This document shows positions 27,536 through 52,707 of a DNA stretch of 64,000 nt, piece by piece. The position numbers and the translations under genes were made by a program. Origin of the DNA: Aequorivita aquimaris (GTDB lineage Bacteria > Bacteroidota > Bacteroidia > Flavobacteriales > Flavobacteriaceae). Below the pieces are notes generated by a model. That model ran no database searches. It saw only the letters and a list, made by a program, of their open reading frames with translations, and was not told the DNA's origin. The DNA lies in the NCBI RefSeq assembly GCF_001573155.1, contig NZ_JRWG01000001.1, forward strand, positions 124,001 to 188,000, given 5' to 3'. The stretch's first letter is position 1. The number at the start of each line of letters is the position of its first letter.

Positions 27536-28252
27536 TTGCCTTTTAGAAAAATCAAACAATCAAACATACATAGTACCAAAGACAATCTTCAAGTTCTGTT
27601 TGAAGACAATCATCTAATCGTCGTAAATAAACGTCCGGGAGATATTATTCAGGGCGACAAAACTGGAGATGCCCCCCTTTTGGAAGTTGTGAAGGAATAC
27701 ATTGCCGAAAAATACAACAAGCCCGGCGCAGTATTTCTTGGGGTAGTTCACAGATTAGACCGTCCCACGAGCGGAGTCGTTGTATTTGCGAGAACTTCTA
27801 AAGCATTGGCCCGTTTAAATAAAATGTTTTCCGAAAGGGAAACGGAGAAAATATATTGGGCTATAGTGAAAAATCCTCCCCCAAAATTGGAGGATACGCT
27901 AACGCATTTCTTAAAAAGAAATTCAAAACAGAACAAATCATACGCTCATATTAAAGAAGTACCGGACAGCAAAAAAGCAATACTCCATTATAAACTTCTG
28001 AAAAAACTTGACAATTATTATTTACTGGAAATAACTTTGGAAACTGGTAGGCACCATCAAATTCGGTCACAGCTATCGGCTATTGGGTGTGCCATAAAAG
28101 GAGATTTGAAATATGGTTTTGACAGAAGTAATTCAGATGGCAGTATTCATCTTCACGCTAAAAGATTGACTTTGACCCATCCAGTTCAAAAAGAAGAAAT
28201 TTGTATAGAAGCTACCCCCCCAGTTGATGCTGTATGGAATGCCTGTAATTAA
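27536..28252 (+). CDS. RluA-family RNA pseudouridine synthase
   Basis: A 238-residue protein with the RluA motif HRLDRPTSGVVVFARTSKALARLN, in which the Asp is the catalytic nucleophile. Further blocks are KIYWAIV and LETGRHHQIRSQLSAIGCAIKGDLKYG. It modifies uridine in rRNA or tRNA, but the target base cannot be deduced. No N-terminal S4 domain is present. There is no ATG near the start of the conserved region, so the TTG at 27536 is the likely initiator. It follows panB by 27 nt. Confidence 0.88.
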   Translation: MPFRKIKQSNIHSTKDNLQVLFEDNHLIVVNKRPGDIIQGDKTGDAPLLEVVKEYIAEKYNKPGAVFLGVVHRLDRPTSGVVVFARTSKALARLNKMFSERETEKIYWAIVKNPPPKLEDTLTHFLKRNSKQNKSYAHIKEVPDSKKAILHYKLLKKLDNYYLLEITLETGRHHQIRSQLSAIGCAIKGDLKYGFDRSNSDGSIHLHAKRLTLTHPVQKEEICIEATPPVDAVWNACN

Positions 28253-28902
28253 AGCTGAATTAAGTTTCTTTTCAAAGCAAAAATAACAAGTCCTACTCTA
28301 TTTTTTATTTTAAGTCGTTTGAACAAATCCTGACGGTACCCGTCAATAGTCTTTGGGCTCAATTCCATCATAACGGCTATTTCCTTATAGGTCAACTCAG
28401 AACAAGCTAATTTTATAAAAGTAAGTTCATTTTCCTTAAAGTCGAAAATTCTTCCTTCCTCATCGGGAGTTAGAGAATGCAGCAAGGTTTCAGATACCTT
28501 TTGGGAGTGATAATATCCTTTTTCGCTCAACTCTTTAAGGGCTGTGTTCAAAATTTCGGGGTGTATGTCTTTCAGCAAATATCCTTTTACTCCTCGACGC
28601 AACATTTTAAGGATTGTATGTTCATCATCTTGCATGGAAAGTGCCAACACTTTTATTTCCGGATGGTGCAGCGTGAGCCATTCTGCCGTTTCAAAACCGT
28701 CCATCACGGGCATGTTTATATCCAAAAGTATTATCTCTGGCAAAAGATCACTGTCCTCAATTTTTTTCTGGAGGTGTAATCCGTTTTTAGCGTGAAATAT
28801 AACTTGGAAGTGCGGAAATGAATTGATAAGTTTTTCCAATGAACGTGCAAAAAGAGAGTGATCGTCCACTATACCAACTGTATGATTTGTTTCTGGTCTC
28901 AT
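28249..28902 (-). CDS. NarL/LuxR-type response regulator
   Basis: A 217-residue two-domain regulator. The receiver (about 8-128) has the acidic pair in VGIVDDHSLF and the phospho-acceptor Asp in ILLDINMPVMDG. The conserved Ser/Lys positions are in LALSMQDDEHT and GVKGYLLKDI. The DNA-binding LuxR-type helix-turn-helix (about 150-215) reads ENELTFIKLACSELTYKEIAVMMELSPKTIDGYRQDLFKRLKIKNRVGLVIFALK. It overlaps the kinase gene by ATGA, so they form one two-component system. It is the last gene of a four-gene operon whose head lies divergent from the injection-system operon, which makes it the best candidate for binding the site array at 30786-30888 (inference). Confidence 0.92.
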   Translation of the reverse strand: MRPETNHTVGIVDDHSLFARSLEKLINSFPHFQVIFHAKNGLHLQKKIEDSDLLPEIILLDINMPVMDGFETAEWLTLHHPEIKVLALSMQDDEHTILKMLRRGVKGYLLKDIHPEILNTALKELSEKGYYHSQKVSETLLHSLTPDEEGRIFDFKENELTFIKLACSELTYKEIAVMMELSPKTIDGYRQDLFKRLKIKNRVGLVIFALKRNLIQL

Positions 28903-29699
28903 TTTGTGCTTTTATAGGGATAATTTAAGTATAATTGAGTGCCTTTTCCTATTTCGGAAATGATTTTGTATTCTGCATTTATCAATACTGCCCTGCTCAT
29001 CATAGTTTCCATACCCGAGCTGTCAGTTTTCAGCGAAGTATCGAAGCCAATTCCATCGTCATTTGCAGAAATTTCCAGTGTTTTTTCTTTATAATCTAAA
29101 TGTACGAATAATTTTGAAGCTCTAGCGTGTTTCAATACATTAGAAAGAAATTCCTGCAGAATACGGAAAATGATAATTTCGCTCGCGCTATTTATAGGAA
29201 TTATGTCGCCAGTTATTTTTAGGGAGGCGTCGAGATAGCCCAAACGCTTAAATCGGTCAAGCTCCACGTTCAGCGAAGCAAGTAGCCCATTTTTTAGAAC
29301 CACATCGTTATTGAGCACCTTGGATAGGGAACGTATTTCCTGAACGGATTCTTGCACTATGCCCTTTGTTTCCTGAATTTGTCCATGGTAAGTTGCCGGA
29401 GTGGAATTCAACAATACATTAAGCTGGATATTGGCCACGGAAAGCAATTGGCCCACATTATCGTGCAGTTCCCAAGCGATGTTCTTTAGGGTTTGTTCTT
29501 GTATCTCTATTTGTGAATCTGCTAATTCGCGTTGGTAACGCTTTTCTGCTTCATAACGTTCCTTTAAAAATTTGTTTTTTCGGCGCTGAAAAGCAACAAC
29601 GAAAACAATTGCAAAGACCGCAAAAAACAATAGTACAGCAATAAAATAAACTATTAAAAGCTTTTCTTGGGGTAGTAGGGGTTCTCTGTCCGATAGCAT
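28899..29699 (-). CDS. Sensor histidine kinase (HisKA_3 type), single membrane helix
   Basis: A 266-residue kinase with one transmembrane helix near the N-terminus (about 14-37). It then has a short coiled coil and the HisKA_3 dimerisation box NIAWELHDNVGQLLSVANIQLNVLL (phospho-His about residue 78). A HATPase domain follows with ILQEFLSNVLKHARASK (N-box) and ISANDDGIGFDTS (G1). No sensory domain is present in this chain. Its gene overlaps the preceding seven-helix membrane protein gene by 46 nt, so that protein probably supplies the input. Confidence 0.9.
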   Translation of the reverse strand: MLSDREPLLPQEKLLIVYFIAVLLFFAVFAIVFVVAFQRRKNKFLKERYEAEKRYQRELADSQIEIQEQTLKNIAWELHDNVGQLLSVANIQLNVLLNSTPATYHGQIQETKGIVQESVQEIRSLSKVLNNDVVLKNGLLASLNVELDRFKRLGYLDASLKITGDIIPINSASEIIIFRILQEFLSNVLKHARASKLFVHLDYKEKTLEISANDDGIGFDTSLKTDSSGMETMMSRAVLINAEYKIISEIGKGTQLYLNYPYKSTK

Positions 29700-30358
29700 A
29701 TTAAAAATCCAGCAATGTAGATGGAATACAACAAATAGTTAGTCCCAAAGATAACCTGTTTATATAGATTCACAAACCCAGGGTCAATAGTATTGCTGTA
29801 ATAAGAACTATATATAAAAAATGGAGTGGTACATAGATGAAAAAGCAACGCTCCTACTGATATATAAAATGGAAGGCTTTTTTGTACTTGCAGGATTTGA
29901 TCACTTTTCAACAATTCCAAATAATAAAATGCAATACTTAAGAAAACAAACAAAGTCCCGAGAATATTGGTTATAGGCATAAACTTAATGAAGAAATCTC
30001 CTGAAAACACTATTTCCAAAATACTGAATATCAAAAAAACTATTGAAACCCTATTAATAATAGTTACTGATTTTTTAGCCGATAAATACCACTTAAAATA
30101 GTTTACGTAGAACAAATAACTAATTACTGTATAAATATTCGCCCACCAATAATTTGATTCAAAAGGGGTTCCCTTTAAAAAATACAAAAAACCATTCTCA
30201 ACAAAATATGCGTACCAACCAAAAATCTCAGAACACACAGTAATACCTAAAAACCAAACTAGGTAAAAAGTTGGTTTGGATTTATTTTTTTGATAATAAA
30301 CAAGCCCGGTTAGAAATGCTAAAAATTCTACTAGGTGTACAAAGAAAAGTGCTAACAC
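29654..30358 (-). CDS. Seven-helix membrane protein, probable sensory partner of the kinase
   Basis: A 234-residue, very hydrophobic protein with about seven predicted membrane helices (near residues 3-20, 30-50, 68-88, 98-118, 125-145, 163-183 and 202-225). Short aromatic-rich loops join them, and no extramembrane domain is present. It starts 2 nt after the stop of the 115-residue gene and overlaps the kinase start by 46 nt in another reading frame, which implies tight translational coupling. Seven-helix modules are often fused to histidine kinases in Bacteroidota, and here the module is encoded separately. Ligand unknown. Confidence 0.75.
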   Translation of the reverse strand: MLALFFVHLVEFLAFLTGLVYYQKNKSKPTFYLVWFLGITVCSEIFGWYAYFVENGFLYFLKGTPFESNYWWANIYTVISYLFYVNYFKWYLSAKKSVTIINRVSIVFLIFSILEIVFSGDFFIKFMPITNILGTLFVFLSIAFYYLELLKSDQILQVQKSLPFYISVGALLFHLCTTPFFIYSSYYSNTIDPGFVNLYKQVIFGTNYLLYSIYIAGFLICYRTENPYYPKKSF

Positions 30359-30360
30359 TA

Positions 30361-30708
30361 TTAATAGTTTTTTGGAGGAAACCCACCAATACTGTTGTTT
30401 AAAGGCTCTAAACTATAATCATTTGCCACTCCTTGAGTAGTTCCCAATGTAGGAGCCAAAAAGACCGTAGCTTTATCAGATGTTGCGTTATCATACGCTC
30501 CAAAATAAATACGAATTCCTGGATTCATACTTCCGGAACCAGCTTTCACATAGGCCAGAAACTCTTCAAGCTCTGCAACGCTAAACAAAAATTCACGAGT
30601 ATCTCCCGATCCCATGGCACGTTCAATATCAACAGCGCGTGTTGCTACCCAGTTATCCTGTAATTGTTTTGCCGCAGCAACCGTGATACAATTTGATGGT
30701 TTTGACAT
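30361..30708 (-). CDS. Small conserved cytoplasmic protein heading the two-component operon
   Basis: A 115-residue protein (MSKPSNCITVAAAKQLQDNW...) with no signal peptide or membrane helix. The ATG at 30708 was preferred to a longer version that begins in the intergenic region. Visible blocks are an N-terminal helix, 'TREFLFSVAELEEFLAYVKAGS' and 'GIRIYFGAYDNA...ATVFLAPT', the last reading like a beta hairpin. I do not recognise the family. Being the first gene of the kinase operon and divergent from the injection-system promoter, it may take part in the same regulation. Confidence 0.65.
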   Translation of the reverse strand: MSKPSNCITVAAAKQLQDNWVATRAVDIERAMGSGDTREFLFSVAELEEFLAYVKAGSGSMNPGIRIYFGAYDNATSDKATVFLAPTLGTTQGVANDYSLEPLNNSIGGFPPKNY

Positions 30709-30785
30709 AATTAAATTGGTTTTATGGTTAATTGGCAGCAATGTAGTAAAAACAATCAAAAAAGTGCTTTTTGTAACGAATAAAC

Positions 30786-30888
30786 AGGGAAAATCCCCTT
30801 TCCTTATAGGATTTTTCCTATAACCTAACAGGGGTTTTACCTATAAAAAATACAGTGAAAATCCCCTTGAAAATTCAGGTAAAATCCT
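30786..30888. promoter_or_regulatory. Array of five phased 12-bp regulator sites upstream of the eCIS operon
   Basis: Five near-palindromic 12-mers of consensus AGGnAAAAnCCY begin at 30786 (AGGGAAAATCCC), 30808 (AGGATTTTTCCT), 30831 (GGGGTTTTACCT, reverse orientation), 30854 (AGTGAAAATCCC) and 30877 (AGGTAAAATCCT). Successive starts are 22, 23, 23 and 23 bp apart, close to two helical turns, so all face the same side of the DNA. The last site ends one base before the -33 TTG of the eCIS promoter, the position of a class II activator. The NarL-type regulator of the divergent operon is the obvious candidate binder, by inference. Confidence 0.7.
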
Positions 30889-30889
30889 G

Positions 30890-30920
30890 TTGTATAGACT
30901 CTTATGTTTCAATACATTTG
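30890..30920 (+). promoter_or_regulatory. Promoter of the contractile injection system operon
   Basis: TTG at 30890-30892, 20-nt spacer, TACATTTG at 30913-30920, a perfect Bacteroidota promoter. Transcription start expected near 30927. The promoter lies inside a possible longer reading frame beginning at 30904, which shows that the first gene really starts at 30955. Confidence 0.75.
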
Positions 30921-30954
30921 GGTTTATAAGAACAACCAACAGATTCTTTGTAAA

Positions 30955-31548
30955 ATGATTTACGAAACACTAGAAATAGTAAAAGATCAAGTTTCAAAAT
31001 ATTTGGAGCAAAAAACTACGGATGCAAATCTGGTGGTTCTGGAAAATGTTTCAAAATATGAGGATCCCGACATAAATACTATGAGCGATAAAGTGGTGCT
31101 ATCGCTTTTAAACATTGAAGAGGAAATTTCACTAAAAAACAATCCAAATATCAAAGTTAAAAACGGGGAAACTATTTACAAAAATGCACCAGTAAACCTA
31201 AATGTTTTTGCACTCTTCTCGGCAAATAGAAATACATATACGCGCTCGCTAATTGCTATTTCCTTTATTATAGAATTTTTTCAATCAAAAAAAATCTTTA
31301 CGCAAACAAACACACCATTGAATCCAACCATTCCGGCTTTGGAGAATATAAAAGAGTTTCGCTTTATTGCCGAGCTCTACACCCCAACATTTGAACAACT
31401 AAATTATATCTGGGGCACTTTGGGCGGAAAAGCCCTGCCAAGCGTGCTCTACAAAATAAGTGTCGTAAAAATTGAAAGCGACTCGCTTGTTGAAAAAGGC
31501 AAACCGATTACTGAAATTTCTGGAATCCTCAATAACAATATGCCATGA
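30955..31548 (+). CDS. eCIS tube-terminator/cap protein (Pvc16/Afp16-like, DUF4255)
   Basis: A 197-residue protein of the DUF4255 (Pvc16 N-terminal) family: MIYETLEIVKDQVSKYLEQK, then DKVVLSLLNIEEE, NAPVNLNVFALFSANR.TYTRSLIAISFIIEFFQSKK, and a C-terminal 'LYTPTFEQLNYIWGTLGGKALPSVLYKISVVKI'. In PVC and Afp this protein caps the end of tube and sheath distal to the baseplate and fixes particle length. The ATG at 30955 was chosen because the upstream part of the frame covers the promoter. Placing it first in the operon is typical for eCIS of Bacteroidota. Its stop overlaps the next start (ATGA). Confidence 0.85.
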   Translation: MIYETLEIVKDQVSKYLEQKTTDANLVVLENVSKYEDPDINTMSDKVVLSLLNIEEEISLKNNPNIKVKNGETIYKNAPVNLNVFALFSANRNTYTRSLIAISFIIEFFQSKKIFTQTNTPLNPTIPALENIKEFRFIAELYTPTFEQLNYIWGTLGGKALPSVLYKISVVKIESDSLVEKGKPITEISGILNNNMP

Positions 31549-32420
31549 GTTTTACTGCCACATATAAAATTCTGTTCGGTATGAATCTGTACCACCACTA
31601 TTTTTTAGATGATGGCAGTATAGCTTTTGATGCGAATGCTACTTTAAAGGAAGCGCAGCTCAACAAATACAATTTTGGGGATTTCTGTGAAATAATTCCT
31701 TCCGAAGAAACCCAGGAAATTTTTAAAGGGAGCAAGCTAGTTTTCAAAACCACTCCCAGTGGGTTCACCATATATGCGAAAGCCGAGGAAACTGCGCCCA
31801 ATTCGGGAACATACAGACCTTTTGTTAATCTTCCGCAAACAACAGTTTTCAATTTTTTGATTTATGTGAAAGATCCGCTTTTCGAAAATTATTCAACGGT
31901 GAATCCAAAGCCGGCCATTCCCTATTATTTTTCAAACAAAAAACCTGTTTCCGAAGGCGTTTCTTTCAATTATTTAGATTTGGAAACCACTACCCTGCCC
32001 GTAGAAAATTTCACTATAAACCAAACAAGTTATGGTGAAATGGCAAAAAATCTTTCCACCAAAGAAAAGATTGGGCTTTTCGGAATCATTTCGTTGGAAA
32101 TGGCGGGAGACGACACTGTTCCCTTCGACGGCAACGCACGGAATATTCTAAACGCAAACGGAACCATTCCCGCTTTTCCAAAAACCTTCAAACTTCAATT
32201 AAAAAACCGAAGCACCATCTGGAACTACCGTGATGCCTCAACCAATACACTCCTCCACTCTACAGATCCCACAACACTTCCGTTGGCCAAAAACGGTATT
32301 ATAGGTTACAGTTTTAACGGCCAAGAAAGACCTTCCGCATTCCCATCCCGACTCATATTTGAAAAGGACGGCGGCGGAAATATCATAAAAACCATTTCAG
32401 AAATATTTATTAACCAATAA
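31545..32420 (+). CDS. eCIS-associated protein, possible cap adaptor
   Basis: A 291-residue protein with no signal or membrane segment and mainly beta character. Its start overlaps the cap gene (ATGA) and it ends 8 nt before the sheath gene. There is no counterpart between cap and sheath in the PVC or Afp loci. In the AlgoCIS of Algoriphagus two cap-related proteins (a cap and a cap adaptor) have been described, and position makes this gene a candidate for the second. I see no sequence motif that proves it. Other options are a baseplate or cargo protein. Confidence 0.5.
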   Translation: MSFTATYKILFGMNLYHHYFLDDGSIAFDANATLKEAQLNKYNFGDFCEIIPSEETQEIFKGSKLVFKTTPSGFTIYAKAEETAPNSGTYRPFVNLPQTTVFNFLIYVKDPLFENYSTVNPKPAIPYYFSNKKPVSEGVSFNYLDLETTTLPVENFTINQTSYGEMAKNLSTKEKIGLFGIISLEMAGDDTVPFDGNARNILNANGTIPAFPKTFKLQLKNRSTIWNYRDASTNTLLHSTDPTTLPLAKNGIIGYSFNGQERPSAFPSRLIFEKDGGGNIIKTISEIFINQ

Positions 32421-32428
32421 CAAAAACT

Positions 32429-33853
32429 ATGGCAACTACGTACAAAACACCCGGGGTCTATGTGGAGGAAATATCGAAGTTTCCACCATCTGTGGCCCAA
32501 GTGGAAACAGCAATCCCGGCCTTTATTGGCTACACCGAAATCAGCGACACAACCGTCCGCAACAAACCGAAACGTATTGTTTCGCTGCTGGAATACGAAA
32601 CCTATTTTGGAAAGGCGCAGAAGGAAGCAAACATTACCGTAACCATCAACGATACCATAAACAGCGGGCCACCAGTACAGCTTTTGGACCAAAAGTTTAG
32701 CGTGGCGCTGGGAACCACCAGTCCATACGTAATGTATTATGCCATGCGCATGTATTTTGACAATGGCGGTGGGCCTTGCTACATATGTTCTGTGGGTGAT
32801 TATACCAGCGGAACCGTAAATCAGCCATTGCTTGCCGCAGGTTTAGACGAGTTTGAAAAATTTGATGAGCCCACGCTTTATGTATTTCCAGATGCGATGG
32901 CGGTTTCCACCGCTTCAAGCTACTACTCGCTTATAAACAGAGCATTGATGCAATCGCAAAAGCTGAAAGACCGCTTTGTTATTATAGATGCTTTCGCTAA
33001 CAATAGTGACAATATTCGCAACACTGCGTCCTTGGGCAATGGTGTTGATTTATTGAAATATGGTGCGGCCTATCACCCTTTCTTAAGAACTGTTTACAGC
33101 TATGCATACGATGATGCAGCCGTTACATTGGCACATAATGTAACAGATGAAACCAATACTACTTCAGCAGGCGCATATGACACCAAAGCATTAAGCGAGC
33201 TTGCAGACAGTGGCGATTCCGATTTCAACTTGATACTTTATAACAAAATAAAAACCGAACTGGAAAAACAATACGTAACACTTCCGCCAAGCAGTGCAAT
33301 GGCCGGGGTTTATGCACGAGTGGACAGCAATCGGGGCGTTTGGAAAGCCCCTGCAAACGAATCGGTGAGTGCCGCTGTGGAGCCCACAATCAAAATTACC
33401 CACGAAGCACAGCAGGATTTGAACATCCATACCTCAGGAAAATCCATCAATGCCATCCGGTCATTTACAGGGAAGGGAATCTTGGTCTGGGGCGCACGAA
33501 CTCTTGCGGGCAATGACAACGAGTGGAAATACGTACCCGTTCGCCGTTTCTTCAATATGGTGGAAGAGTCTGTTGAAAAAGCTACGGCACAGTTTGTCTT
33601 CGAACCTAATGATGCAAACACTTGGGTAAAAGTACGCGCGATGATTGAAAATTTTCTAATTCTTCAATGGAGAGCAGGCGCATTGGCAGGCGCCAAACCC
33701 GAACAGGCATTTTACGTGCGCGTAGGTTTGGGCGAAACAATGACCGCAGATGACATATTGAACGGGATTATGAATATTGAAATAGGAATGGCTGCAGTAC
33801 GCCCTGCAGAATTCATTGTTTTGAAATTCTCGCACAAAATGCAGGAAGCTTAG
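32429..33853 (+). CDS. eCIS contractile sheath protein
   Basis: A 474-residue phage-tail-sheath protein that forms the outer contractile layer. It starts TTYKTPGVYVEEISKFPPSVAQVETAIPAFIGYTE, the standard PGVYVEE sheath opening. It contains the variable surface domain in the middle and ends in the conserved handshake region (about 370-474): ARTLAGNDNEWKYVPVRRFFNMVEESVEKATAQFVFEPND...ENFLILQWRAGALAGAKPEQAFYVRVG. Only one sheath gene exists here, against three in PVC. A 94-nt gap with a direct repeat separates it from the tube gene. Confidence 0.95.
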   Translation: MATTYKTPGVYVEEISKFPPSVAQVETAIPAFIGYTEISDTTVRNKPKRIVSLLEYETYFGKAQKEANITVTINDTINSGPPVQLLDQKFSVALGTTSPYVMYYAMRMYFDNGGGPCYICSVGDYTSGTVNQPLLAAGLDEFEKFDEPTLYVFPDAMAVSTASSYYSLINRALMQSQKLKDRFVIIDAFANNSDNIRNTASLGNGVDLLKYGAAYHPFLRTVYSYAYDDAAVTLAHNVTDETNTTSAGAYDTKALSELADSGDSDFNLILYNKIKTELEKQYVTLPPSSAMAGVYARVDSNRGVWKAPANESVSAAVEPTIKITHEAQQDLNIHTSGKSINAIRSFTGKGILVWGARTLAGNDNEWKYVPVRRFFNMVEESVEKATAQFVFEPNDANTWVKVRAMIENFLILQWRAGALAGAKPEQAFYVRVGLGETMTADDILNGIMNIEIGMAAVRPAEFIVLKFSHKMQEA

Positions 33854-33911
33854 TCTTAGTTTGCAGTTTTCAGTAGCAGTGAGCAGTTATTTCAAACGGA
33901 ACACAAAACAC

Positions 33912-33937
33912 TTAACATTTAACCATTAACATTTAAC
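33912..33937 (+). repeat. Direct repeat TTAACATTTAAC x2 before the tube gene
   Basis: The 12-mer TTAACATTTAAC occurs at 33912-33923 and again at 33926-33937, in the only sizeable gap (33854-33947) within the structural part of the operon. The A/T-rich unstructured leader ends 10 nt before the tube ATG. It could favour ribosome loading of the most abundant subunit, or it could be replication slippage. Confidence 0.45.
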
Positions 33938-33947
33938 ACATAGCAAA

Positions 33948-34385
33948 ATGGCAAATACATATCCATTAGTAAAGTTTCATTTCTCAGTGGACTGGGGAGG
34001 AACAAACATAGGTTTTACCGAGGTCAGTGGACTGGACGTAGAAACCGAATTGATCGAGTACCGTCACGGTGCCAGCCCGGAATACAGCAAAATAAAGATG
34101 CCGGGAATGCAGAAATACAGCAACATAACCTTAAAACGCGGTTCATTTGCGAACGACAACGAGTTTTACAAATGGTGGAATACCGTAAGCCTAAATAAAA
34201 TTGAGCGCCGCGACATCACCATTTCATTGCTGAACGAAGAGCACGCGCCGGTAATAGTTTGGAAGGTGAAAAACGCCTTTCCGATAAAGGTACAATCCAC
34301 AGATTTGAAAGGCGACGGCAACGAAACCGCCATTGAAACTCTGGAGATTGCCCACGAAGGTCTAACCATCCAAAACGGAGATTGA
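33948..34385 (+). CDS. eCIS inner tube protein (Pvc1/Afp1-like, gp19 type)
   Basis: A 145-residue tail-tube protein: YPLVKFHFSVDWGGTNIGFTEVSGLDVETELIEYRHGASPEYSKIKMPGMQKYSNITLKRGSF, then FYKWWNT and RRDITISLLNEEHAPVIVWKVKNAFPIKVQSTDLKG. These are hallmark blocks of the gp19/Hcp-like beta-barrel that stacks as hexamers to form the tube carrying effectors. Its stop overlaps the next tube-like gene (ATGA). Confidence 0.93.
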   Translation: MANTYPLVKFHFSVDWGGTNIGFTEVSGLDVETELIEYRHGASPEYSKIKMPGMQKYSNITLKRGSFANDNEFYKWWNTVSLNKIERRDITISLLNEEHAPVIVWKVKNAFPIKVQSTDLKGDGNETAIETLEIAHEGLTIQNGD

Positions 34386-34825
34386 TGGCCACTGAATATC
34401 CTCCGGTAAGCTTTCATTTTAAGGTGGAATTCAACGGAATTTCCTCACAGGAAAAAGACGTTCAGTTCCAATCGGTATCGGGGCTTTCCATAGATATTGA
34501 GACCGAGGAATTTGCAGAGGGAGGCGAAAACAGGTTCAAACATAAATTGCCGGTGCGGTCCAAATTTCCAAACCTTGTTTTGAAACGCGGGATGGTAACC
34601 GATTCCGAAATCATAAAATGGTGCCGGAACGCCATTGAAAGTTTTCAGTTTGAACCCGTTGATCTCACAGTAAAATTGCTGAACGAAAAGCATGAACCGC
34701 TTGTAACCTGGAACGTTGTGCATGTTTATCCCGTAAAATGGAGCGTTGACGATTTTAATGCCGAAGAAAGCAAAATAACGATTGAGACCATAGAATTAGC
34801 CTATAACTATTTTACACTCGTATAA
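34382..34825 (+). CDS. eCIS second tube protein (Pvc5/Afp5-like)
   Basis: A 147-residue homologue of the inner tube protein (PPVSFHFKVEFNGI...FQSVSGLSIDIETEEFAEGGENRFKHKLPVRSKFPNLVLKRGM...PVDLTVKLLNEKHEPLVTWNVVHVYPVKWSVDDFNAEESKI). Its insertion of about five residues after the first strand and its position fit the tube-initiator proteins that link the spike to the tube. Two adjacent Met codons are available (34382 and 34385). Confidence 0.9.
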   Translation: MMATEYPPVSFHFKVEFNGISSQEKDVQFQSVSGLSIDIETEEFAEGGENRFKHKLPVRSKFPNLVLKRGMVTDSEIIKWCRNAIESFQFEPVDLTVKLLNEKHEPLVTWNVVHVYPVKWSVDDFNAEESKITIETIELAYNYFTLV

Positions 34826-34826
34826 A

Positions 34827-34988
34827 ATGCCTATCGAAATCAAAGAGCTTCACATCAAGATAAATGTGAACGGCGACGAACAATCCAATGCCCCACGAGA
34901 TACGCAATCCGTGGGCAAAGCGGAAAGAATTGTGAAAGCGGCCGTTGAAGAGGTTATGCGAATTGAATCCCGAAAAAAAGAACGATAA
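34827..34988 (+). CDS. Small Pvc6-like protein (DUF5908 type)
   Basis: A 53-residue open frame starting MPIEIKELHIKINVN. It has a polar middle and a basic C-terminal helix (ERIVKAAVEEVMRIESRKKER). It sits between the second tube gene (1-nt gap) and the LysM gene (TAATG overlap at 34988), exactly where PVC and Afp loci have a protein of about 60 residues. The MPIEI-EL-I-V opening matches DUF5908 proteins of eCIS loci. It may bind the tube or baseplate during assembly. Confidence 0.8.
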   Translation: MPIEIKELHIKINVNGDEQSNAPRDTQSVGKAERIVKAAVEEVMRIESRKKER

Positions 34989-35674
34989 TGAAAGGCGAAC
35001 TCACAAAGCTGAAAATTATAGCCTACCGCGATAACAAATTCACCCAATTGGTGGGCGACGGCGTATTTTCTTCTTTATTGAATCCCGAAAAATACGCTTT
35101 CAAATACAAGGTGGAATACACCGAAGCGCAAGGCCAGGGCACTAGTGCCACGCAGCCCAAATACGTTCGTTCGCTGCCCGAGGATTTGAATCTCCAATTT
35201 CTTTTTGACAGAACGGGCATTATCAAAGGGCACGACAATTCGATTGGCATGGGAATCGTTGCCGATATTGAGCGATTCAAAAGAATCGTTTTCGATTATA
35301 ACGGCGATGAGCACAAACCCAATTATTTAATGATTGGATGGGGCACGCTGCTTTTCAAAGGGATTTTGGCAGAAATGTCTATTGAATACAAGCTTTTTTC
35401 ACCAGAAGGCGTTCCCCTTCGGGCCACGGTAACTGCAAGTTTCAAGGGCGTCGTGGACGAACTTTTGAGATTGGCAAAGGAAAACAACAATTCCCCAGAT
35501 TTAACACACGTGCGGATTGTGAAGGAAGGCGACACGCTGCCGCTAATGACTTTCAGGATTTACGGCGATTCAAAATATTACTTGCAGGTTGCCGCCGCCA
35601 ATAACCTGACCAATTTCCGAAGATTGAAACCGGGCCAACAGCTAAAATTTCCACCCATAGAAAAAGTATCCTAA
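34988..35674 (+). CDS. eCIS LysM-domain hub protein (Pvc7/Afp7-like)
   Basis: A 228-residue protein with an N-terminal CIS tube/gp53-like domain (about 1-170: PEKYAFKYKVEYTEAQGQGTSATQPKYVRSLPEDLNLQFLFDRTGI). A C-terminal LysM follows (about 178-226: VRIVKEGDTLPLMTFRIYGDSKYYLQVAAANNLTNFRRLKPGQQLKFPPI). In related particles this subunit locks the spike and the first tube rings together, and the LysM holds baseplate contacts rather than peptidoglycan. It ends 1 nt before the VgrG-like gene. Confidence 0.9.
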   Translation: MKGELTKLKIIAYRDNKFTQLVGDGVFSSLLNPEKYAFKYKVEYTEAQGQGTSATQPKYVRSLPEDLNLQFLFDRTGIIKGHDNSIGMGIVADIERFKRIVFDYNGDEHKPNYLMIGWGTLLFKGILAEMSIEYKLFSPEGVPLRATVTASFKGVVDELLRLAKENNNSPDLTHVRIVKEGDTLPLMTFRIYGDSKYYLQVAAANNLTNFRRLKPGQQLKFPPIEKVS

Positions 35675-35675
35675 A

Positions 35676-37421
35676 ATGCCGAACAGTAGAACCATAGAAA
35701 CCTCCAGAAGCGCCGATTTGGTAACCTTCAAAATCTTGATTGAGGGCACCGAACTTTCGGCCGCACATCAAGTGAAGAATATTTCGGTGGAAAAGGAAAT
35801 AAACCGAATTCCCTTTGCGCAAATCGTGTTTTTTGATGGGGAAGCGGCTTCGCAAAATTTCAGTCTCAGCAATGAGGATTTATTGGTTCCCGGAAAAAAT
35901 ATCGAAATAAAGGCAGGCTACCACAGCGATGAGGAAACCATTTTTAAAGGAATAATCATAAAACAAAGCATTAAAATCCGCGAAAGCAATTCAGTTTTGA
36001 TTGTGGAATGCCGCGATGAGGCCGTGAAAATGACCATTGGCAGAAAGAGCAATTTTTACTACGAAAGCAAGGACAGCGATATTATTGAAGAAATTATTGG
36101 CAAATACGCCTTGGAAAGCGATGTGGAAGCAACTTCGTTCACCAATAAGGAAATGGTTCAATATCGAGCTTCCGATTGGGATTTTATAATGACTCGTGCC
36201 CAAATCAACGGACAAATTTGTACTGTTGATGATGGAAAAATAACAGTTTCAAAACCCGATCTTTCCCAAGATGCAATTGAAACCGTTGCCTTCGGCGCTA
36301 CCCTACTCGATTTTGATGCGGAAATGGATGCCCGAAACCAATTCAACACAATTACCGTATACGGCTGGAATCCTTCCGAACAGGAAATTGTGGAAGCCGA
36401 AGCCACTGACCCCGCAATTTCCCTAAACGGAAATATTTCGGTTTCAGATTTAGCGGAAATAATAAACCTTGAAAATTTGGAATTGAAAAGCGGCGGAAGT
36501 TACAATTCAACCCAATTAAAAGATTGGAGCGATGCAAAAAGTCTATTCCAGCAACTTTCAAAAACGCGCGGACACGTAAAATTTCAAGGCATTCCAACCG
36601 TAAAACCCGGAACGATGCTCAAGTTGGAAGGCGTGGGCGAACGTTTCAACGGAAAGATTTTTATCAGTGCCGTTCGCCACGAAATTGTGGATGGCAACTG
36701 GACCGTTGACGCCGAATTCGGGATGAACCCAAAATGGTTCAGCGAAACCTATGATATTTCAGAGTTGCCTGCTGCCGGAATTATTCCCGCGGTGAGTGGC
36801 TTGCAAATTGGGGTTGTTTCACAATTGGAATCGGATCCCGACGGCGAGGATAGAATTTTGGTGAAAATACCCATCATCAACAAAGAAAAACAGGGCATTT
36901 GGACACGTATCGCAACTCTGGATGCCGGAAATAACCGAGGCTCTTTCTTTCTGCCAGAAATTGGAGACGAAGTAATTGTAGGTTTCGTAAACGACGACCC
37001 AAACCATGTGGTAATCCTCGGAATGCTCCACAGCAGCGCAAAACCCGCCCCTTTGACAGCCTCCGACGACAATCACGAAAAAGGGTTTGTTACCCGAAGT
37101 GAAATGAAACTCATTTTCAATGATGAGAAAAAATCAATCACTATTGAAACGCCCGGCGGGAAAAAAGTTACCATAGACGAAGATGCGGGAGCAATTGTAA
37201 TTGAGGATGAAAATTCAAACAAAATTACAATGGACAGTGATGGGGTTGCGATGGAAAGCGGAAAGGATTTCAGCATAAAAGCAACCGGTGATTGCAACAT
37301 TGAAGCTATGAATATAAATGTAAAAGCGAATGCCCAATTCAAAGCTGAAGGCAGTGCTGGAGCGGAAGTTTCAACCAGTGCCGTCGCAGTTTTAAAAGGA
37401 TCATTAGTTCAAATAAATTAA
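35676..37421 (+). CDS. eCIS spike protein (VgrG-like, Pvc8/Afp8)
   Basis: A 581-residue trimeric hub/spike protein. The gp27-like part spans about 10-360, the OB-fold (gp5-like) about 385-460 with QLESDPDGEDRILVKIPIINKEKQGIWTRIATLDAGNNRGSFFLPEIGDEVIVGFVNDDPNHVVILGMLHS. The C-terminal beta-helix (about 485-575) is built from short repeats such as IETPGGKKVTIDEDAGAIVIEDENSNKITMDSDG. No extra enzymatic domain follows the needle. It forms the central spike that the PAAR protein sharpens. Confidence 0.95.
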   Translation: MPNSRTIETSRSADLVTFKILIEGTELSAAHQVKNISVEKEINRIPFAQIVFFDGEAASQNFSLSNEDLLVPGKNIEIKAGYHSDEETIFKGIIIKQSIKIRESNSVLIVECRDEAVKMTIGRKSNFYYESKDSDIIEEIIGKYALESDVEATSFTNKEMVQYRASDWDFIMTRAQINGQICTVDDGKITVSKPDLSQDAIETVAFGATLLDFDAEMDARNQFNTITVYGWNPSEQEIVEAEATDPAISLNGNISVSDLAEIINLENLELKSGGSYNSTQLKDWSDAKSLFQQLSKTRGHVKFQGIPTVKPGTMLKLEGVGERFNGKIFISAVRHEIVDGNWTVDAEFGMNPKWFSETYDISELPAAGIIPAVSGLQIGVVSQLESDPDGEDRILVKIPIINKEKQGIWTRIATLDAGNNRGSFFLPEIGDEVIVGFVNDDPNHVVILGMLHSSAKPAPLTASDDNHEKGFVTRSEMKLIFNDEKKSITIETPGGKKVTIDEDAGAIVIEDENSNKITMDSDGVAMESGKDFSIKATGDCNIEAMNINVKANAQFKAEGSAGAEVSTSAVAVLKGSLVQIN

Positions 37422-37459
37422 AAAGTCAATCAACTAACAACTATAAACCAACAACCAAA

Positions 37460-37753
37460 ATGCCACCAGCAGCCCGAATAAACGATATGCACATTTGCCC
37501 GATGACCAACCCAAACGGAAGTCCGCACGTTGGCGGGCCAATACTTCCTGCGGGCGAACCAACGGTTTTAATAGGCGGAATGCCCGCAGCCAGAGTTGGA
37601 GATATGGCAACCTGTGCGGGACCACCGGACTCAATAATAATGGGCTCGTCCTCGGTATTTATCGGCGGAATGCCCGCAGCGAGATTGGGAGATAGCACGG
37701 CACACGGTGGAAGTATTGTTTTGGGGGAATTCACGGTATTAATAGGAGGATAA
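37460..37753 (+). CDS. eCIS PAAR tip protein (Pvc10/Afp10-like)
   Basis: A 97-residue PAAR-repeat protein: PPAARINDMHICP, GEPTVLIGGMPAARVGDMATC, SSVFIGGMPAARLGDSTAHGGSIVLGEFTVLIGG. The Pro-Ala-Ala-Arg motif appears three times, and His/Cys residues able to bind a metal at the tip are present. It would cap the VgrG-like needle. Its order relative to gp25 (PAAR before gp25) is reversed compared with PVC. Confidence 0.95.
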   Translation: MPPAARINDMHICPMTNPNGSPHVGGPILPAGEPTVLIGGMPAARVGDMATCAGPPDSIIMGSSSVFIGGMPAARLGDSTAHGGSIVLGEFTVLIGG

Positions 37754-37755
37754 TT

Positions 37756-38166
37756 ATGAATACATCAGATACATTTTTAGGAGAAGGTTGGAGTTTTCCG
37801 CCCCATTTTGACAAAAAAACGGGCCAATTGGTCACCACGACCGGAGTGGCAGATATCAACAAAAGCCTTGAAATTCTTTTATCAACCCGCTTGGGCGAAC
37901 GAGTAATGCTTCCCAATTATGGCTGCAATTTGGAAGAACTATTATTTCAACCGCTGGATGTAACCTTAAAGACCTATATAATTGAACTTATAAAAACCGT
38001 AATTCTGTATTACGAACCACGAATTGATACACAAACAGTATCGCTAGACACCACAAATGAGCTGAACGGCGAGGTCTTAATAAACATTGAATACGTTGTC
38101 AGAATCACAAATTCGAGGGCAAACCTTGTATTTCCATTTTACAAAACCGAAGGCACCGAAGTATAA
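37756..38166 (+). CDS. eCIS baseplate protein, GPW/gp25 family (Pvc9/Afp9-like)
   Basis: A 136-residue gp25-like wedge protein: DTFLGEGWSFPPHFDK, ATGVADINKSLEILLSTRLGERVMLPNYGCNLEELLFQPLD and a C-terminal strand INIEYVVRITNSRANLVFPFY. The EILLSTRLGERVMLP.YGC block is diagnostic. It attaches the sheath to the baseplate. It starts 2 nt after the PAAR stop. Confidence 0.93.
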   Translation: MNTSDTFLGEGWSFPPHFDKKTGQLVTTTGVADINKSLEILLSTRLGERVMLPNYGCNLEELLFQPLDVTLKTYIIELIKTVILYYEPRIDTQTVSLDTTNELNGEVLINIEYVVRITNSRANLVFPFYKTEGTEV

Positions 38167-38171
38167 AAACC

Positions 38172-41100
38172 ATGGCAAAAGACTGCGAAAATAAATTTCT
38201 GATAAACCATAAGGGCACCGAACAGACCCAAAGGTCGCTCAGCGCCATGCTTCCGGAAAATCTGAACTTGAACGATTTTTCAACAGAAGACTGGATGAAG
38301 TTTGCCTATAATTTTGCTTCGGAAGTAAATTATTTTTCTGTTGAAAATGCTGCTGTACCTTCGGGAAATTGGGAATCATTTTTTATTGAAAAGGAAAAAA
38401 TCACAGCTTTTTTAAGAGAGGCCGAAACGTCAAACCGCCTCTCCCCGCACCTTGCACTTTTTGTGTGCTTTCTGAAATTGCTTGAAATTTCCAAAGCACA
38501 TTTTAATGCACTTACCAAAAGACATCTCGATTTCTATTACAACGAAATTCTTCAAATTGACAAAAAAGCTCCGGTCGCAGATAGTGTTCATCTTATTTTT
38601 GAATTGGCCAAGAATTTTTCTACTTCCAAAGTAGATGAACACACGCTACTGGAGGCCGGAAAAGATGCTTTGGGGAAACGACTGCAATACGCAACCGATA
38701 AAGAAGTAGTTGTTAACAAAGCGACTGTTGGTGCCTTAAAAAGCATTTACCATCACAGAAAAACCAACAATCTAAACCCAATTGAATTTAACGGGCTATT
38801 TGCCGCGCCAGCAGTAAATTCCGCAGACGGCAAAGGCGAACCTTTTAAAGCCGATGGAAATTGGTTGCCCTTTGGTTACCCAACCCATTTTAAACCTTCA
38901 ATTTCTTTGGAAACCCCAAACCTTGGATTTGCAATTGCAGCACCAACCTTGAATTTGGGCGAAGGGGAACGCGTAATCCAAGTTATTTTCAATCTTGAAA
39001 AATCAATTCCGGTTTTCAATATTTCACAGCTAATTGATTGTATCGACGTTTTTGCCACTGGTGAAAAAGACTGGCTGGGACCGTTTAAAATTTCGGCTTC
39101 AACAAAGGGTTTTACTTCGGTTGTTGGAAATAAAACAGTTCAATTTTGTTTGAAAATTGATAAAACGGAAAAGGCAATTGTTCCGTATAACCAAGAAATC
39201 CACAAAGAAAATTTCGAAACCGAACAACCAGTATTTCGATTTCTGCTGAAAACGCAACAACCCGAATTCAGCATCGGTTACCAACTTTATACGGAATTGC
39301 TTCAGAAAAAAGTAAAAAAAACAACCGTAAAAGTCTCCGTTTCCGAAGCTGAAAATCTGCAATTGAAAAATGATTTTGGAACCCTTGCTGCAGACAAGCC
39401 CTTTTTTCCTTTCGGAACGCAGCCTATGGAACGCTCCGCTTTCTATATTGACTATCCCGAAATGTTCAGCAAAAAGTGGAACACAGTTTCACTTCACGCC
39501 TCGTGGCTGAATACTCCGTCCGATTTCAAACAACATTACATTGCATACAGAAAAGACGATAACAATTTCAACCTATCGCCAAATCTGTATTTTCAAACGC
39601 TTTATTTCAATTTTAATACGGTAACCAAAAAATATGCAAAACCTGCTGGGTTAACTTTTAATCCAACCTCAAGCCCGAGCAATCTTTACGTAACCGGAAA
39701 CGATTATTTTAAGGCGAAGGTTTCCGTTGAAAACAATGAAAATTTGGTAACCGTAAACGGTGCCTTTCCGCTTTTCACCAAAAATGGGGAACTTTTTGAA
39801 AGCAATCTTTCCATCAATAACGCAAATTACACAACGGGAAAAAACGGACCAATAAAACTATCGTTGAACCAATCGTTTTTACACGCACTCTTCCCAAAGG
39901 TTTATGCGCTCGCGCTTTCCACGGAAGAAGATACCGTACTGCCCAACGAACCGTACACTCCAATTATTGAAAAAATTGCACTGAATTATACCGCGAGTCA
40001 AGAAGTTGAATTTGGTGTTTCACAAACCGCAAATCTTGAAAAGATACAATTGTTCCACGAGCATCCGTTCGGGCAGGCGGAAACTTCCGAGACTTTGGTC
40101 CCAACGTACTGTGCTGGCGGCGAACTTTACATCGGTCTTGAGAATACCGAGGCATTGCAGCAAGTGCAGTTATTGTTTCAATTATTGGAAGGAACCGAAA
40201 ACCCGTTGGCGGAAACTTTTTCCTCTGCTGAAAAAATTTCTTGGGCAGTGCTTTCAAACAATTCTTGGATGGAACTTTCGAGCGATTATTTGTTGGGAAA
40301 TACAACAGATAACTTCCTAAAAACAGGAATTGTAACCATCATAATTCCGCGCGAAGCTACCGAAAACAATACGTTGTTGCCTTCGGGAATGGTTTGGCTG
40401 CGCGCAAAAAATCCAAAGAGCTTCGATGCGGTTTGTAGGTTTATAAACGTCCACGCACAGGTTATTACGGCAACTTTCGTAAACAATAGCAATGAACTTT
40501 CGCACCTTAAAAACGGTCTGCCTGCCGAAACCATCAGCAAACTTACGGAGCGCGATTCCGCAATAAAAAGTGTTTTGCAACCCTACAATTCCTTTGGCGG
40601 AAAACCCGAGGAAAGCGATGAAAGCTACTATCGCCGCGTGAGCGAACGGATTCGCCATCGCGACCGCGCCATTTCACTGTGGGATTACGAACATTTAATT
40701 CTTCAAAAATTTCCGGAAGTGTATAAAGTGAAATGCTTAAACCACACAAAAGGCAATGATTTTCACGCGCCGGGAAATGTTATGGTAGTTGTGATTCCTG
40801 ATATTAAAAATAATAATGCCTTCGATATTTTTCAGCCGCGATTGAGTACTGCCAAGCGAAACGAGATTCAAAATTACATCAACGAACTGAACACGTTTTT
40901 CGTTTTCGCGGAAATTATAAACCCCGATTACGAAGAAGTTGAGGTTACGCTCGGTGTGAAATTCAACACAGGTTTTGACGAAAATTTCTATACAAAACAA
41001 ATTGAGGAAGACGTCAAAAAATACCTTTCGCCTTGGGCGTATTCGGAAACCTCAGTACTGAATTTTGGTGTTGCCTTTCACAAAAACAAACTCATTTCCT

Positions 41101-41309
41101 ATTTGGAAAACCAGCCGTACGTTGACTTTTTAGACGATGTGAGTGTGAAGCACAGAACCTCTGAAACTTCAGCATATATTGAAAAAACGAACGTGATTCC
41201 ATCGAGTCCGAAAGCAATTTTGGTCTCGGCAAAAAAGCATTTTATAACCGCCGTGCAATCAAAATGCAGTGAACAAACCCCTAAAAAACCAACCGTATGT
41301 CTTCCGTAA
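38172..41309 (+). CDS. eCIS baseplate J-like wedge protein (Pvc11/Afp11-like)
   Basis: A 1045-residue protein whose C-terminal third is the baseplate-J/gp6-like region: ESYYRRVSERIRHRDRAISLWDYEHLILQKFPEVYKVKCLNHTKG...NVMVVVIPDIKNN. The remaining two thirds build the wedge core, with beta-rich insertions. The length agrees with Pvc11. It overlaps the next gene by 13 nt, which suggests coupled production of the two wedge proteins. Confidence 0.9.
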   Translation: MAKDCENKFLINHKGTEQTQRSLSAMLPENLNLNDFSTEDWMKFAYNFASEVNYFSVENAAVPSGNWESFFIEKEKITAFLREAETSNRLSPHLALFVCFLKLLEISKAHFNALTKRHLDFYYNEILQIDKKAPVADSVHLIFELAKNFSTSKVDEHTLLEAGKDALGKRLQYATDKEVVVNKATVGALKSIYHHRKTNNLNPIEFNGLFAAPAVNSADGKGEPFKADGNWLPFGYPTHFKPSISLETPNLGFAIAAPTLNLGEGERVIQVIFNLEKSIPVFNISQLIDCIDVFATGEKDWLGPFKISASTKGFTSVVGNKTVQFCLKIDKTEKAIVPYNQEIHKENFETEQPVFRFLLKTQQPEFSIGYQLYTELLQKKVKKTTVKVSVSEAENLQLKNDFGTLAADKPFFPFGTQPMERSAFYIDYPEMFSKKWNTVSLHASWLNTPSDFKQHYIAYRKDDNNFNLSPNLYFQTLYFNFNTVTKKYAKPAGLTFNPTSSPSNLYVTGNDYFKAKVSVENNENLVTVNGAFPLFTKNGELFESNLSINNANYTTGKNGPIKLSLNQSFLHALFPKVYALALSTEEDTVLPNEPYTPIIEKIALNYTASQEVEFGVSQTANLEKIQLFHEHPFGQAETSETLVPTYCAGGELYIGLENTEALQQVQLLFQLLEGTENPLAETFSSAEKISWAVLSNNSWMELSSDYLLGNTTDNFLKTGIVTIIIPREATENNTLLPSGMVWLRAKNPKSFDAVCRFINVHAQVITATFVNNSNELSHLKNGLPAETISKLTERDSAIKSVLQPYNSFGGKPEESDESYYRRVSERIRHRDRAISLWDYEHLILQKFPEVYKVKCLNHTKGNDFHAPGNVMVVVIPDIKNNNAFDIFQPRLSTAKRNEIQNYINELNTFFVFAEIINPDYEEVEVTLGVKFNTGFDENFYTKQIEEDVKKYLSPWAYSETSVLNFGVAFHKNKLISYLENQPYVDFLDDVSVKHRTSETSAYIEKTNVIPSSPKAILVSAKKHFITAVQSKCSEQTPKKPTVCLP

Positions 41310-43957: not shown

Positions 43958-43969
43958 AATACCAAAGTT

Positions 43970-46594: not shown

Positions 46595-46836
46595 GAAGTT
46601 TAGCTGAAAATAGCGTAAAAAAAGAAGGGTATCAGTCGGTAAAATTGTACAATCCGAATGATACCCTTATGGGTCTAAACACTAAAGAACTAGCACTACA
46701 AGTAAGACAAAAGACCGACGAAAGTAAACCTAACGAACGAACTAAAGTACAAACTATAAAAGAACTTGAACTAAACTGCACACAACCCAGTAATTCATCT
46801 CTGAATCGAGTAGTAAATATAAGTCTAAAAAACTAA
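46591..46836 (+). CDS. Small eCIS-linked hypothetical protein
   Basis: An 81-residue, polar and basic protein (MRSLAENSVKKEGYQSVKLYNPNDTLMGLNTKELALQVRQKTDESKPNERTKV...). It has no hydrophobic segment and looks largely disordered. Its start overlaps the preceding stop (ATGA) and it ends 7 nt before the tape-measure gene. I do not recognise it. It could be an assembly chaperone or a small cargo-docking protein. Confidence 0.5.
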   Translation: MRSLAENSVKKEGYQSVKLYNPNDTLMGLNTKELALQVRQKTDESKPNERTKVQTIKELELNCTQPSNSSLNRVVNISLKN

Positions 46837-46843
46837 ACAACAA

Positions 46844-48193: not shown

Positions 48194-48197
48194 AATT

Positions 48198-51891: not shown

Positions 51892-52707
51892 ATGAAAAAA
51901 GACAAATATCTAAAAGAGCTGACCATTAACGAGACCCAAAAAAGACACGGCGACAATACTAAAAAAGATGTGATGAAAATACAGTCTTGGCTTTCACTCT
52001 ATGCCATTCAAAACCCCGAAAGTGGTACTGTAACCGGAATTGACGGCGATTTTGGCCCAGCAACCGAAAAAGCGGTCAAAAATTTTCAAAAGGCAACAAA
52101 AAGCAGCCAGAACGGGATAGTTACCCCACAACTTTTTGAAAAACTCTGCGAAGGCATGAAAGATGCCTTTGAAAGACCATTGCAGTCAATCACGCTAAGA
52201 AATGCAATGGTGGAAGCGGCTGAAAATCATTTAAGGAATGCCCCTTTCGAACTCGAAATAAAAGGACAATCCAACAGTGGCCCGTGGGTTCGGGCGTATA
52301 TGGACGGCCATGACGGTTCGCCTTGGTACTGGTGCATGGGCTTTGCACAAACAATTTTAGACCAAGCCGCCAGCGCGCTCGGGAAGGATTTCCGCAGCTT
52401 AATGCCGCTTACTTACAGTTGCGATACCGTTGGGACGACAGGTTTGAGCAAAGGGTTGTTGACGCGTTACCAAACGGTTCGCAACAATCCTTCGGTGATG
52501 AAACCGGGTGATTTTTTCCTTTTGCAAAAATCTAGATATGATTGGACGCATACAGGTATTATCATTTCCGTGGGCAACGACGTGATTGAGACCATTGAGG
52601 GAAACACCAACCAAGCGGGCTCCCGAAACGGGATTGCGGTTTTAAAAAGAACCCGAAATTTCAGAAAATCGAAACTGGATGTTTTCTCCATCGAGCCATT
52701 GGTATAG
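51892..52707 (+). CDS. Peptidoglycan-binding and CHAP-domain hydrolase in the eCIS locus
   Basis: A 271-residue protein. An N-terminal peptidoglycan-binding domain (about 20-85: DVMKIQSWLSLYAIQ...GIDGDFGPATEKAVKNFQKATKSSQNGIVTPQLFEKL) is followed by a CHAP-type amidase/peptidase domain (about 105-250). That domain has candidate catalytic Cys in WYWCMGFAQTI and His in DWTHTGIIISVG, with EGNTNQ after it. It has no signal peptide. It could cut peptidoglycan from within to release particles, or act as cargo. The ATG at 51892 is preferred, since the longer frame overlaps the preceding gene. Confidence 0.8.
   Translation: MKKDKYLKELTINETQKRHGDNTKKDVMKIQSWLSLYAIQNPESGTVTGIDGDFGPATEKAVKNFQKATKSSQNGIVTPQLFEKLCEGMKDAFERPLQSITLRNAMVEAAENHLRNAPFELEIKGQSNSGPWVRAYMDGHDGSPWYWCMGFAQTILDQAASALGKDFRSLMPLTYSCDTVGTTGLSKGLLTRYQTVRNNPSVMKPGDFFLLQKSRYDWTHTGIIISVGNDVIETIEGNTNQAGSRNGIAVLKRTRNFRKSKLDVFSIEPLV

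Follow-up and report, generated by a model that had tools for sequence, protein, structure and literature searches.

The closest described precedent for the regulatory region analyzed here comes from Mycobacterium tuberculosis, where DevR/DosR, a regulator of the NarL subfamily, binds cooperatively to two or more packed sites, with the proximal site overlapping the -35 element and divergent promoters sharing two sites (PMC3029386). Judging from the available part of that source, the likeness comprises a NarL-type regulator, close-packed sites, a proximal site that reaches or adjoins the -33/-35 element and divergent promoters, whereas the motif, the phylum and the promoter type are different, the site core here ends 1 nt before the TTG element, the sites number up to five, the binding is a prediction, and an eCIS as well as small-RNA-like genes are among the predicted targets. 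GerE-domain regulators and histidine kinases are known to reside beside eCIS loci, for which the involvement of a two-component system was suggested (PMC8213781); relative to the accessible text of that work, the DNA site, the promoter geometry, the partner proteins, the wider regulon and the small RNAs described here are additions. For the eCIS loci that lack conserved regulatory genes, the regulation and the inducers remain unclear according to the accessible part of a 2023 review (PMC10598620).

The window, that is, the entire stretch of 64,000 nucleotides from Aequorivita aquimaris (Flavobacteriaceae) that was analyzed, harbors a genuine eCIS operon downstream of the array, with Pfam domains from Pvc16_N through CIS_TMP and eCIS_core in one cluster. 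The first eCIS gene, which encodes the Pvc16_N domain, occupies 30955..31548 (+); the ORF is also readable from 30904, and the homology begins near 30955. The stretch at 31545..50945 (+) encodes, among others, the sheath, two gp19 tube proteins, CIS_tube, spike/base_V, PAAR, gp25, Baseplate_J and the CIS tape measure protein, as well as an eCIS_core/OmpA/M35-type protein (all by Pfam). At the end of the cluster are a PG_binding/CHAP-type gene (51892..52707, +), whose product is 90% identical to a protein of a congener (genome G027) and whose homologue adjoins the array in eCIS-less relatives, and a membrane protein gene (52778..55351, +), whose G027 homologue contains a patatin-like stretch that scores slightly short of the Pfam cut-off and stays with the CHAP-type gene. 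Also near the cluster end, the gene at 55368-56696 (+) matches the IetA models of PADLOC (E 6e-35); an AAA ATPase gene is common in eCIS clusters, so this gene need not be involved in defense.

Upstream of the eCIS, five 12-mer sites had been predicted to start at 30786, 30808, 30831, 30854 and 30877, and all five are located exactly there, with start-to-start spacings of 22, 23, 23 and 23 bp. Site 1 (AGGGAAAATCCC, 30786..30797, +), site 2 (AGGAAAAATCCT, 30808..30819, -), site 3 (AGGTAAAACCCC, 30831..30842, -) and the promoter-proximal site 5 (AGGTAAAATCCT, 30877..30888, +) fit AGGNAAAANCCY exactly, sites 2 and 3 on the minus strand, and site 4 (AGTGAAAATCCC, 30854..30865, +) departs by one mismatch; the 12-mer core is enclosed by a longer, partial palindrome, ACAGG-N6-CCTGT. 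In an alignment of the eight eCIS-bearing Aequorivita loci, the core identities of sites 1 through 5 are 0.905, 0.738, 0.854, 0.705 and 0.914, respectively, and, when the footprint is taken as a whole, the cores are 82% identical compared to 53% for the linkers, 71% for the upstream and 60% for the downstream sequence, so the sites are more conserved in relatives than the surrounding DNA, as expected under the original prediction. An iteron, a REP or a CRISPR-like repeat was considered and ruled out because it is mainly the palindromic cores that are conserved and their orientations are mixed.

The 12-mer by itself is not enriched: AGGNAAAANCCY has 53 matches in the 3.15-Mb genome vs 60 for the reversed control, and, with one mismatch allowed, 12 matches in the window vs 17.4 expected, so single sites represent background. 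Among 2000 dinucleotide shuffles of 30706-30954, a single match with a score of at least 7 appeared in 664, about a third, which leaves only pairs informative; none of the 2000 yielded a chain exceeding two sites, with a matrix that was built from the same five sites, so that out-of-sample tests carry more weight. The phased-pair pattern (two AGGNWWWWNCCT 23 bp apart, with at most two mismatches) was detected at 8 places in the A. aquimaris genome, which was scanned with patterns rather than with the matrix, vs 2 for the control. It is the regular spacing, not the 12-mer itself, that is enriched in the genome, and phased matches elsewhere are rare, which is likewise in favor of the original prediction.

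The claim of helical phasing does not hold in the strict sense, given that 22-23 bp amount to 2.10-2.19 turns and the 91 bp from site 1 to site 5 to 8.67 turns, so the sites drift around the helix instead of sharing one face. Of 158 site-pair spacings, 67 fall at 22-25 bp, and further clusters occur near 45-46, 67-69 and 89-91 bp; spacings of 22, 23, 24 and 25 bp (2.10-2.38 turns) occur 17, 18, 16 and 16 times, respectively, and pairs at 31-33 bp are absent among the spacings tallied. Because 22-25 bp are used about equally and 31-33 bp are not used, packing of neighbors explains the spacing better than helical phase.

The eCIS promoter (30890..30920, +) consists of TTG (30890-30892), which we take to be the -33 element, N20 and TACATTTG (30913-30920), and, in agreement with the claim made for it, site 5 ends one base before the TTG. 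In the accessible part of the source, TAnnTTTG is the -7 box, at -12 to -5 (PMC9723704), which puts the center of site 5 near -42.5. The TTG follows site 5 after 1 nt, with a spacer of 20, in all eight Pvc16-bearing Aequorivita loci, and the same gap is seen at sites 1, 2, 3 and 4 in 0, 0, 2 and 2 of these eight loci; at site 5, it is also found in all three CHAP-only loci of the Aequorivita group. Outside Aequorivita, where the check took in six loci that combine Pvc16 with the cassette described below (L177 was left out), the 1-nt gap is present in L138, L142 and L152, and no qualifying site was found at the TTG in the other three (L140, L147 and L153). In 29 of the 32 small-RNA-type units discussed below, a gap of 1 nt separates the proximal core from the TTG, and none of the 32 has a TTG at this distance behind the distal core. 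The comparison of loci backs the predicted class II placement relative to the promoter of the eCIS, as well as side-by-side sites of a type that is used cooperatively. The array may also act as the steep switch for a costly particle that was originally proposed. Repressors also use multi-site arrays, and the sequence does not reveal the direction of regulation, so the array could be conceived as the cooperative track of a repressor that silences the eCIS until relief. We consider such a track quite improbable, the more so as the 1-nt distance between the proximal site and the TTG is constant across different promoters and corresponds to the usual position of a class II activator, and a matrix search detected no site between the TTG and the start codon.

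As originally noted, the array lies in an upstream region shared with a divergent operon that encodes a NarL-type regulator, and this operon is a four-gene cassette. It consists of p132 (30361..30708, -), a small protein with a confident predicted model (pLDDT 90); p234 (29654..30358, -), a protein that by eye appears hydrophobic; a histidine kinase with HisKA_3 and HATPase_c domains by Pfam (28899..29699, -); and a response regulator of the NarL/FixJ type, with REC and GerE domains (28249..28902, -), the proposed binder of the array. Neither p132 nor p234 matches a Pfam or NCBIfam family, and the predicted fold of p132 has no match in the PDB at E <= 0.001. The sole PADLOC match of p132, to Cas3b (E 0.0019, 14.7 bits), was taken to be due to chance. 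In the cassettes of G096 and G235, p132 by eye has lipoprotein-like relatives. The divergent cassette promoter is more elusive: a tentative -7 element, TACATTGC (30738..30745, -), was picked by eye in the alignment and is weak, with one departure from TAnnTTTG and no TTG at the right distance. A profile scan of the contigs with the p132 alignment yielded 75 cassette loci, of which, by their labels, 72 belong to Flavobacteriaceae or Flavobacteriales, two to a 'Bacteroidetes bacterium' and one to Cytophagaceae. The A. aquimaris genome itself contains a paralogous cassette (G000:C1:537936), in which the regulator is 47% identical to the one in the window and similar phased sites are found upstream.

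The original prediction regarded the array as a feature of the eCIS, and this part is not supported: the array belongs to the four-gene cassette, which mostly is without an adjacent eCIS, and similar sites precede other genes of the A. aquimaris genome. Pvc16 is near p132 in 14 of the 75 cassette loci and was not seen near it in 61, some of which end close by. Among the 59 cassettes outside Aequorivita (the 75 loci minus L116-L131), a pair at 22-25 bp is present upstream of p132 in 34, with the matrix derived from the window only, compared to a mean of 0.1 and a maximum of 2 in 200 rounds of shuffling; the distance between the pair and p132 is approximately 90 and 112 bp in Aequorivita-like loci and approximately 179 and 204 bp in Aquimarina. 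Starting from the eCIS, a Pvc16 search yielded a match in 42 of 299 genomes, and 20 Pvc16 neighborhoods besides that in the window were examined: with the window-only five-site matrix, a pair at 21-25 bp within 600 bp upstream of Pvc16 was detected in nine of the 10 loci with an adjacent cassette and in none of the 10 without one. The lone cassette-adjacent locus without a pair, G235, has one strong site. Among the eCIS loci without an adjacent cassette, single matches score up to 16.3, the value of G195, and six more loci have matches between 7 and 9.8 (8.9-9.8 in G079, G129, G148 and G189); a looser matrix, based on the window and G254 sites, pairs two matches in G079. A regulator orthologue is encoded elsewhere in the genomes of G079, G195, G148 and G077. 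With the looser matrix, a 22-bp-spaced pair was also observed in L087 (G077), near 7419, before the frame of a LuxR-type regulator that itself lies upstream of an eCIS. Judging by this comparison, the sites are conserved elements that track the cassette rather than the eCIS. Other Flavobacteriaceae eCIS loci seem to be wired separately: in L044, L046, L049, L050, L054 and L055, we noticed by eye a single ATCCCY-N6-RGGGAT palindrome upstream of Pvc16, with the half-sites reversed relative to the array described here and no phased array, and, in L050, L054 and L055, the frame of a LuxR-type regulator ends just before this palindrome (also by eye).

The array can be divided into two parts with different histories. 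In the congener G027, the array adjoins homologues of the CHAP-type and patatin-like genes that in the window are located some 21 kb away, at the cluster end, and, in G012, the CHAP-type gene adjoins the upstream region of the cassette; a Pvc16 search at E <= 1e-10 gave no match in either genome. Despite the absence of Pvc16, all five site positions are retained in G027, at 22-23 bp, and, in G012, two sites stand apart, with no pair next to the cassette. Across the 16 loci of the Aequorivita group, the distal sites (3-5) number two to three in the seven Pvc16-bearing and the three CHAP-only loci and zero to one in the six loci that lack both Pvc16 and CHAP (the count for L130 was adjusted for a long ORF start). 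When these six loci are viewed in the alignment, sites 3-5, site 3 included, are degenerate or gone, and sites 1-2 are retained in five. Since the distal sites are retained or lost together with Pvc16/CHAP while sites 1-2 stay, we assign the distal sites to the eCIS promoter and sites 1-2 to the cassette. The same data bear on the notion that the sites serve only the autoregulation of the cassette, their nearness to the eCIS promoter being incidental; the 61 of 75 cassette loci in which Pvc16 was not seen near p132 (some of them ending close by) would agree with it, but the conservation of sites 3-5 and the fixed TTG gap where an eCIS or a CHAP remnant is present, and their decay elsewhere, make it hardly credible. 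As a separate observation, Aequorivita echinoideorum (L131) has no array upstream of p132 and instead contains a 32-nt perfect inverted repeat, AGAAACGGTTGTCATTAATGACAACCGTTTCT, and the recognition helix of its regulator is changed.

Co-occurrence and covariation both point to the NarL-type regulator at 28249-28902, as the original prediction proposed, as the likely binder of the sites. Over the 299 genomes, the pair pattern was found in 22 of the 40 with a close regulator, four of the 44 with a distant one and eight of the 215 with none, compared to 3/40, 6/44 and 10/215 for the reversed control pattern, where the line between close (at least 53% identity) and distant regulators was drawn once the search result was known. 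A mismatch-free pair occurs in 10 genomes, all of which encode the regulator, and 18 of the 40 close-regulator genomes have no pair of this pattern. In the 65 of the 75 cassette loci with the regulator ORF in range, a pair accompanies the recognition helix DGYR in 28 of 34 cases, ENYRE in 18 of 19, DNYR in none of six and other helices in none of six; of the latter six loci, L151, L162, L170 and L180 have single matches, and L131 and L156 have none. This covariation of helix and site rests on few independent events, with the DNYR loci resembling one clade and L131 being another case.

Near-perfect pairs away from the cassette recur upstream of the CreD operon (CreD, PF06123). A pair at 21-25 bp within 900 bp upstream of this operon is present in 16 of 19 regulator-bearing genomes and in none of five without the regulator; in the three exceptions (G012, G233 and G243), pairs are found a few kb from the CreD operon. 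Six of the 19 genomes had drawn attention by a pattern hit, and, of the other 13, 12 have the pair. Between one and four small-RNA-like units follow in tandem, oriented away from CreD, and each consists of a pair, TTG, approximately 20 bp, CATCTTTG, TTAATTGGGGAGTTAA and a terminator hairpin with a T run. In A. aquimaris, such tandem units, with the core TTAATTGGGGAGTTAA and a covarying terminator, lie divergent to the CreD operon in L214 (G000:C8, about 33100-33430); further loci of this kind are L193, L197, L200, L212, L213 and L216-L219. The search with TGGGGAGTT gave 76 matches, 43 of them unique and 32 with a pair, some of these 32 being near-copies from sister genomes; the alignment (A3) took in 29 of the 32 units, without the fourth unit of G063 and without two G293 units, which nearly duplicate those of G090. 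In the aligned terminator fold, 10 of 15 base pairs show compensatory changes on both sides, and one unit of the A. aquimaris genome folds at z = -4.57. The conserved core and the covarying terminator fit an intrinsically terminated family of small RNAs, the genes of which are predicted. Rfam has no match in the CreD loci L214, L211, L221, L216 and L219 or in the window, and the 10-mer that would be complementary to the small RNA loop is absent from the window, so that pairing with the eCIS region was not detected. CreD and the envelope-stress small RNAs of proteobacteria, where stress regulators drive small RNAs, offer an analogy; a CreD-family membrane protein is in common, whereas the regulator belongs to another family and the small RNAs described here have no match in Rfam.

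The co-occurrence of the small RNAs with the regulator was traced with a model (R1), at a cut of 48 bits that was chosen once the list was known; from about 45 bits down, this model picks up sequences resembling terminators in many genomes. Scores that reached 48 bits were obtained in 28 of the 299 genomes, namely, in 26 of the 40 with a close regulator, one of the 44 with a distant one and one of the 215 with none; without the 18 training genomes, these numbers become eight of 22 (one of the eight, G293, near-copies a training genome), one of 44 and one of 215. Among nine new genomes, the window-only matrix detected a pair in six of the eight with the regulator and not in the one without it. 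The weak R1 hits in the regulator-less G130 and G234 have neither core nor pair. In G130, a near-identical 35-mer at C11:20304, C14:10876 and C14:20033 fits the pair pattern and apparently is an unrelated repeat.

The combination of site, TTG, N20 and -7 box in one pattern occurs, with at most one mismatch, at four places in the A. aquimaris genome: the eCIS (no mismatches), a small RNA (no mismatches), the gene of a T9SS-sorted 237-aa protein (one) and the gene of an M19-peptidase-like 484-aa protein (one); with at most two mismatches, there are 18 rows vs five for the control. Phased sites lie upstream of the T9SS-sorted protein gene at G000:C2:122205-122239 (L106), with a third position seen by eye, and upstream of the M19 dipeptidase-like gene at G000:C3:411804-411838 (L107), which has a counterpart in G254 (L192).

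These distributions also bear on whether the main binder of the array is a different factor, for which the regulator of the paralogous cassette is the most plausible candidate, with the adjacent regulator being only a co-target. The operon of the paralogue has similar phased sites upstream, and its recognition helix, SYKTVEGYRDSVH, is related, so that the paralogue alone, or both regulators, could bind; we regard this as an unlikely but not negligible alternative. Against it, the distribution of the pairs and of the small RNAs matches that of the close orthologue (22/40 and 26/40 genomes, respectively) rather than that of the distant-only regulators (4/44 and 1/44), and, in G042, G078, G188 and G263, the single regulator match is of the close type and the small RNA is present in all four, with pairs detected by the matrix in G078, G042 and G188 and a weaker pair seen by eye in G263.

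We therefore favor, with a probability of roughly 0.7, the reading under which the regulator of the cassette would bind the sites as neighboring dimers and, acting at a class II position, activate the promoter of the eCIS as part of a regulon of the envelope type. Under the proposed mechanism, the kinase, fed by p132/p234, would phosphorylate the NarL-type regulator, the dimers of which would occupy adjacent ACAGG-N6-CCTGT sites at a spacing of 22-23 bp (22-25 bp across loci) and aid one another. The dimer on site 5 would touch RNA polymerase at about -42 and so turn on the eCIS operon, and sites 1-2 could tune the promoter of the cassette itself. The regulator would also drive the tandem small RNA genes, and its probable further targets are the CreD operon, the T9SS-sorted protein gene and the M19 peptidase-like gene, so that eCIS production would be one arm of an envelope-type response.

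With regard to the origin of this arrangement, we see about even odds that a widespread envelope-response circuit of Flavobacteriaceae, composed of the four-gene sensor cassette with its two uncharacterized proteins, the ACAGG-N6-CCTGT code 1 nt from the TTG and the tandem small RNAs, took over an injection-particle operon. The same signal would then fire the particle, the small RNAs and CreD, and the array would be an in-register fusion of the cassette pair with an eCIS-specific triplet. No description of the array, the DNA code or the RNA family was found in the accessible part of the PMC literature searched, which leaves most subscription papers outside; as far as these searches show, the DNA code, its constant geometry, the division of the array into a cassette part and an eCIS part, and the shared small RNA family are new.

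A specific candidate regulator, together with its site, the promoter geometry and a co-regulated gene set, provides a handle on when eCIS particles are made. The candidate co-regulated genes point to an envelope-type signal, and the regulon would include a family of small RNAs without a match in Rfam.
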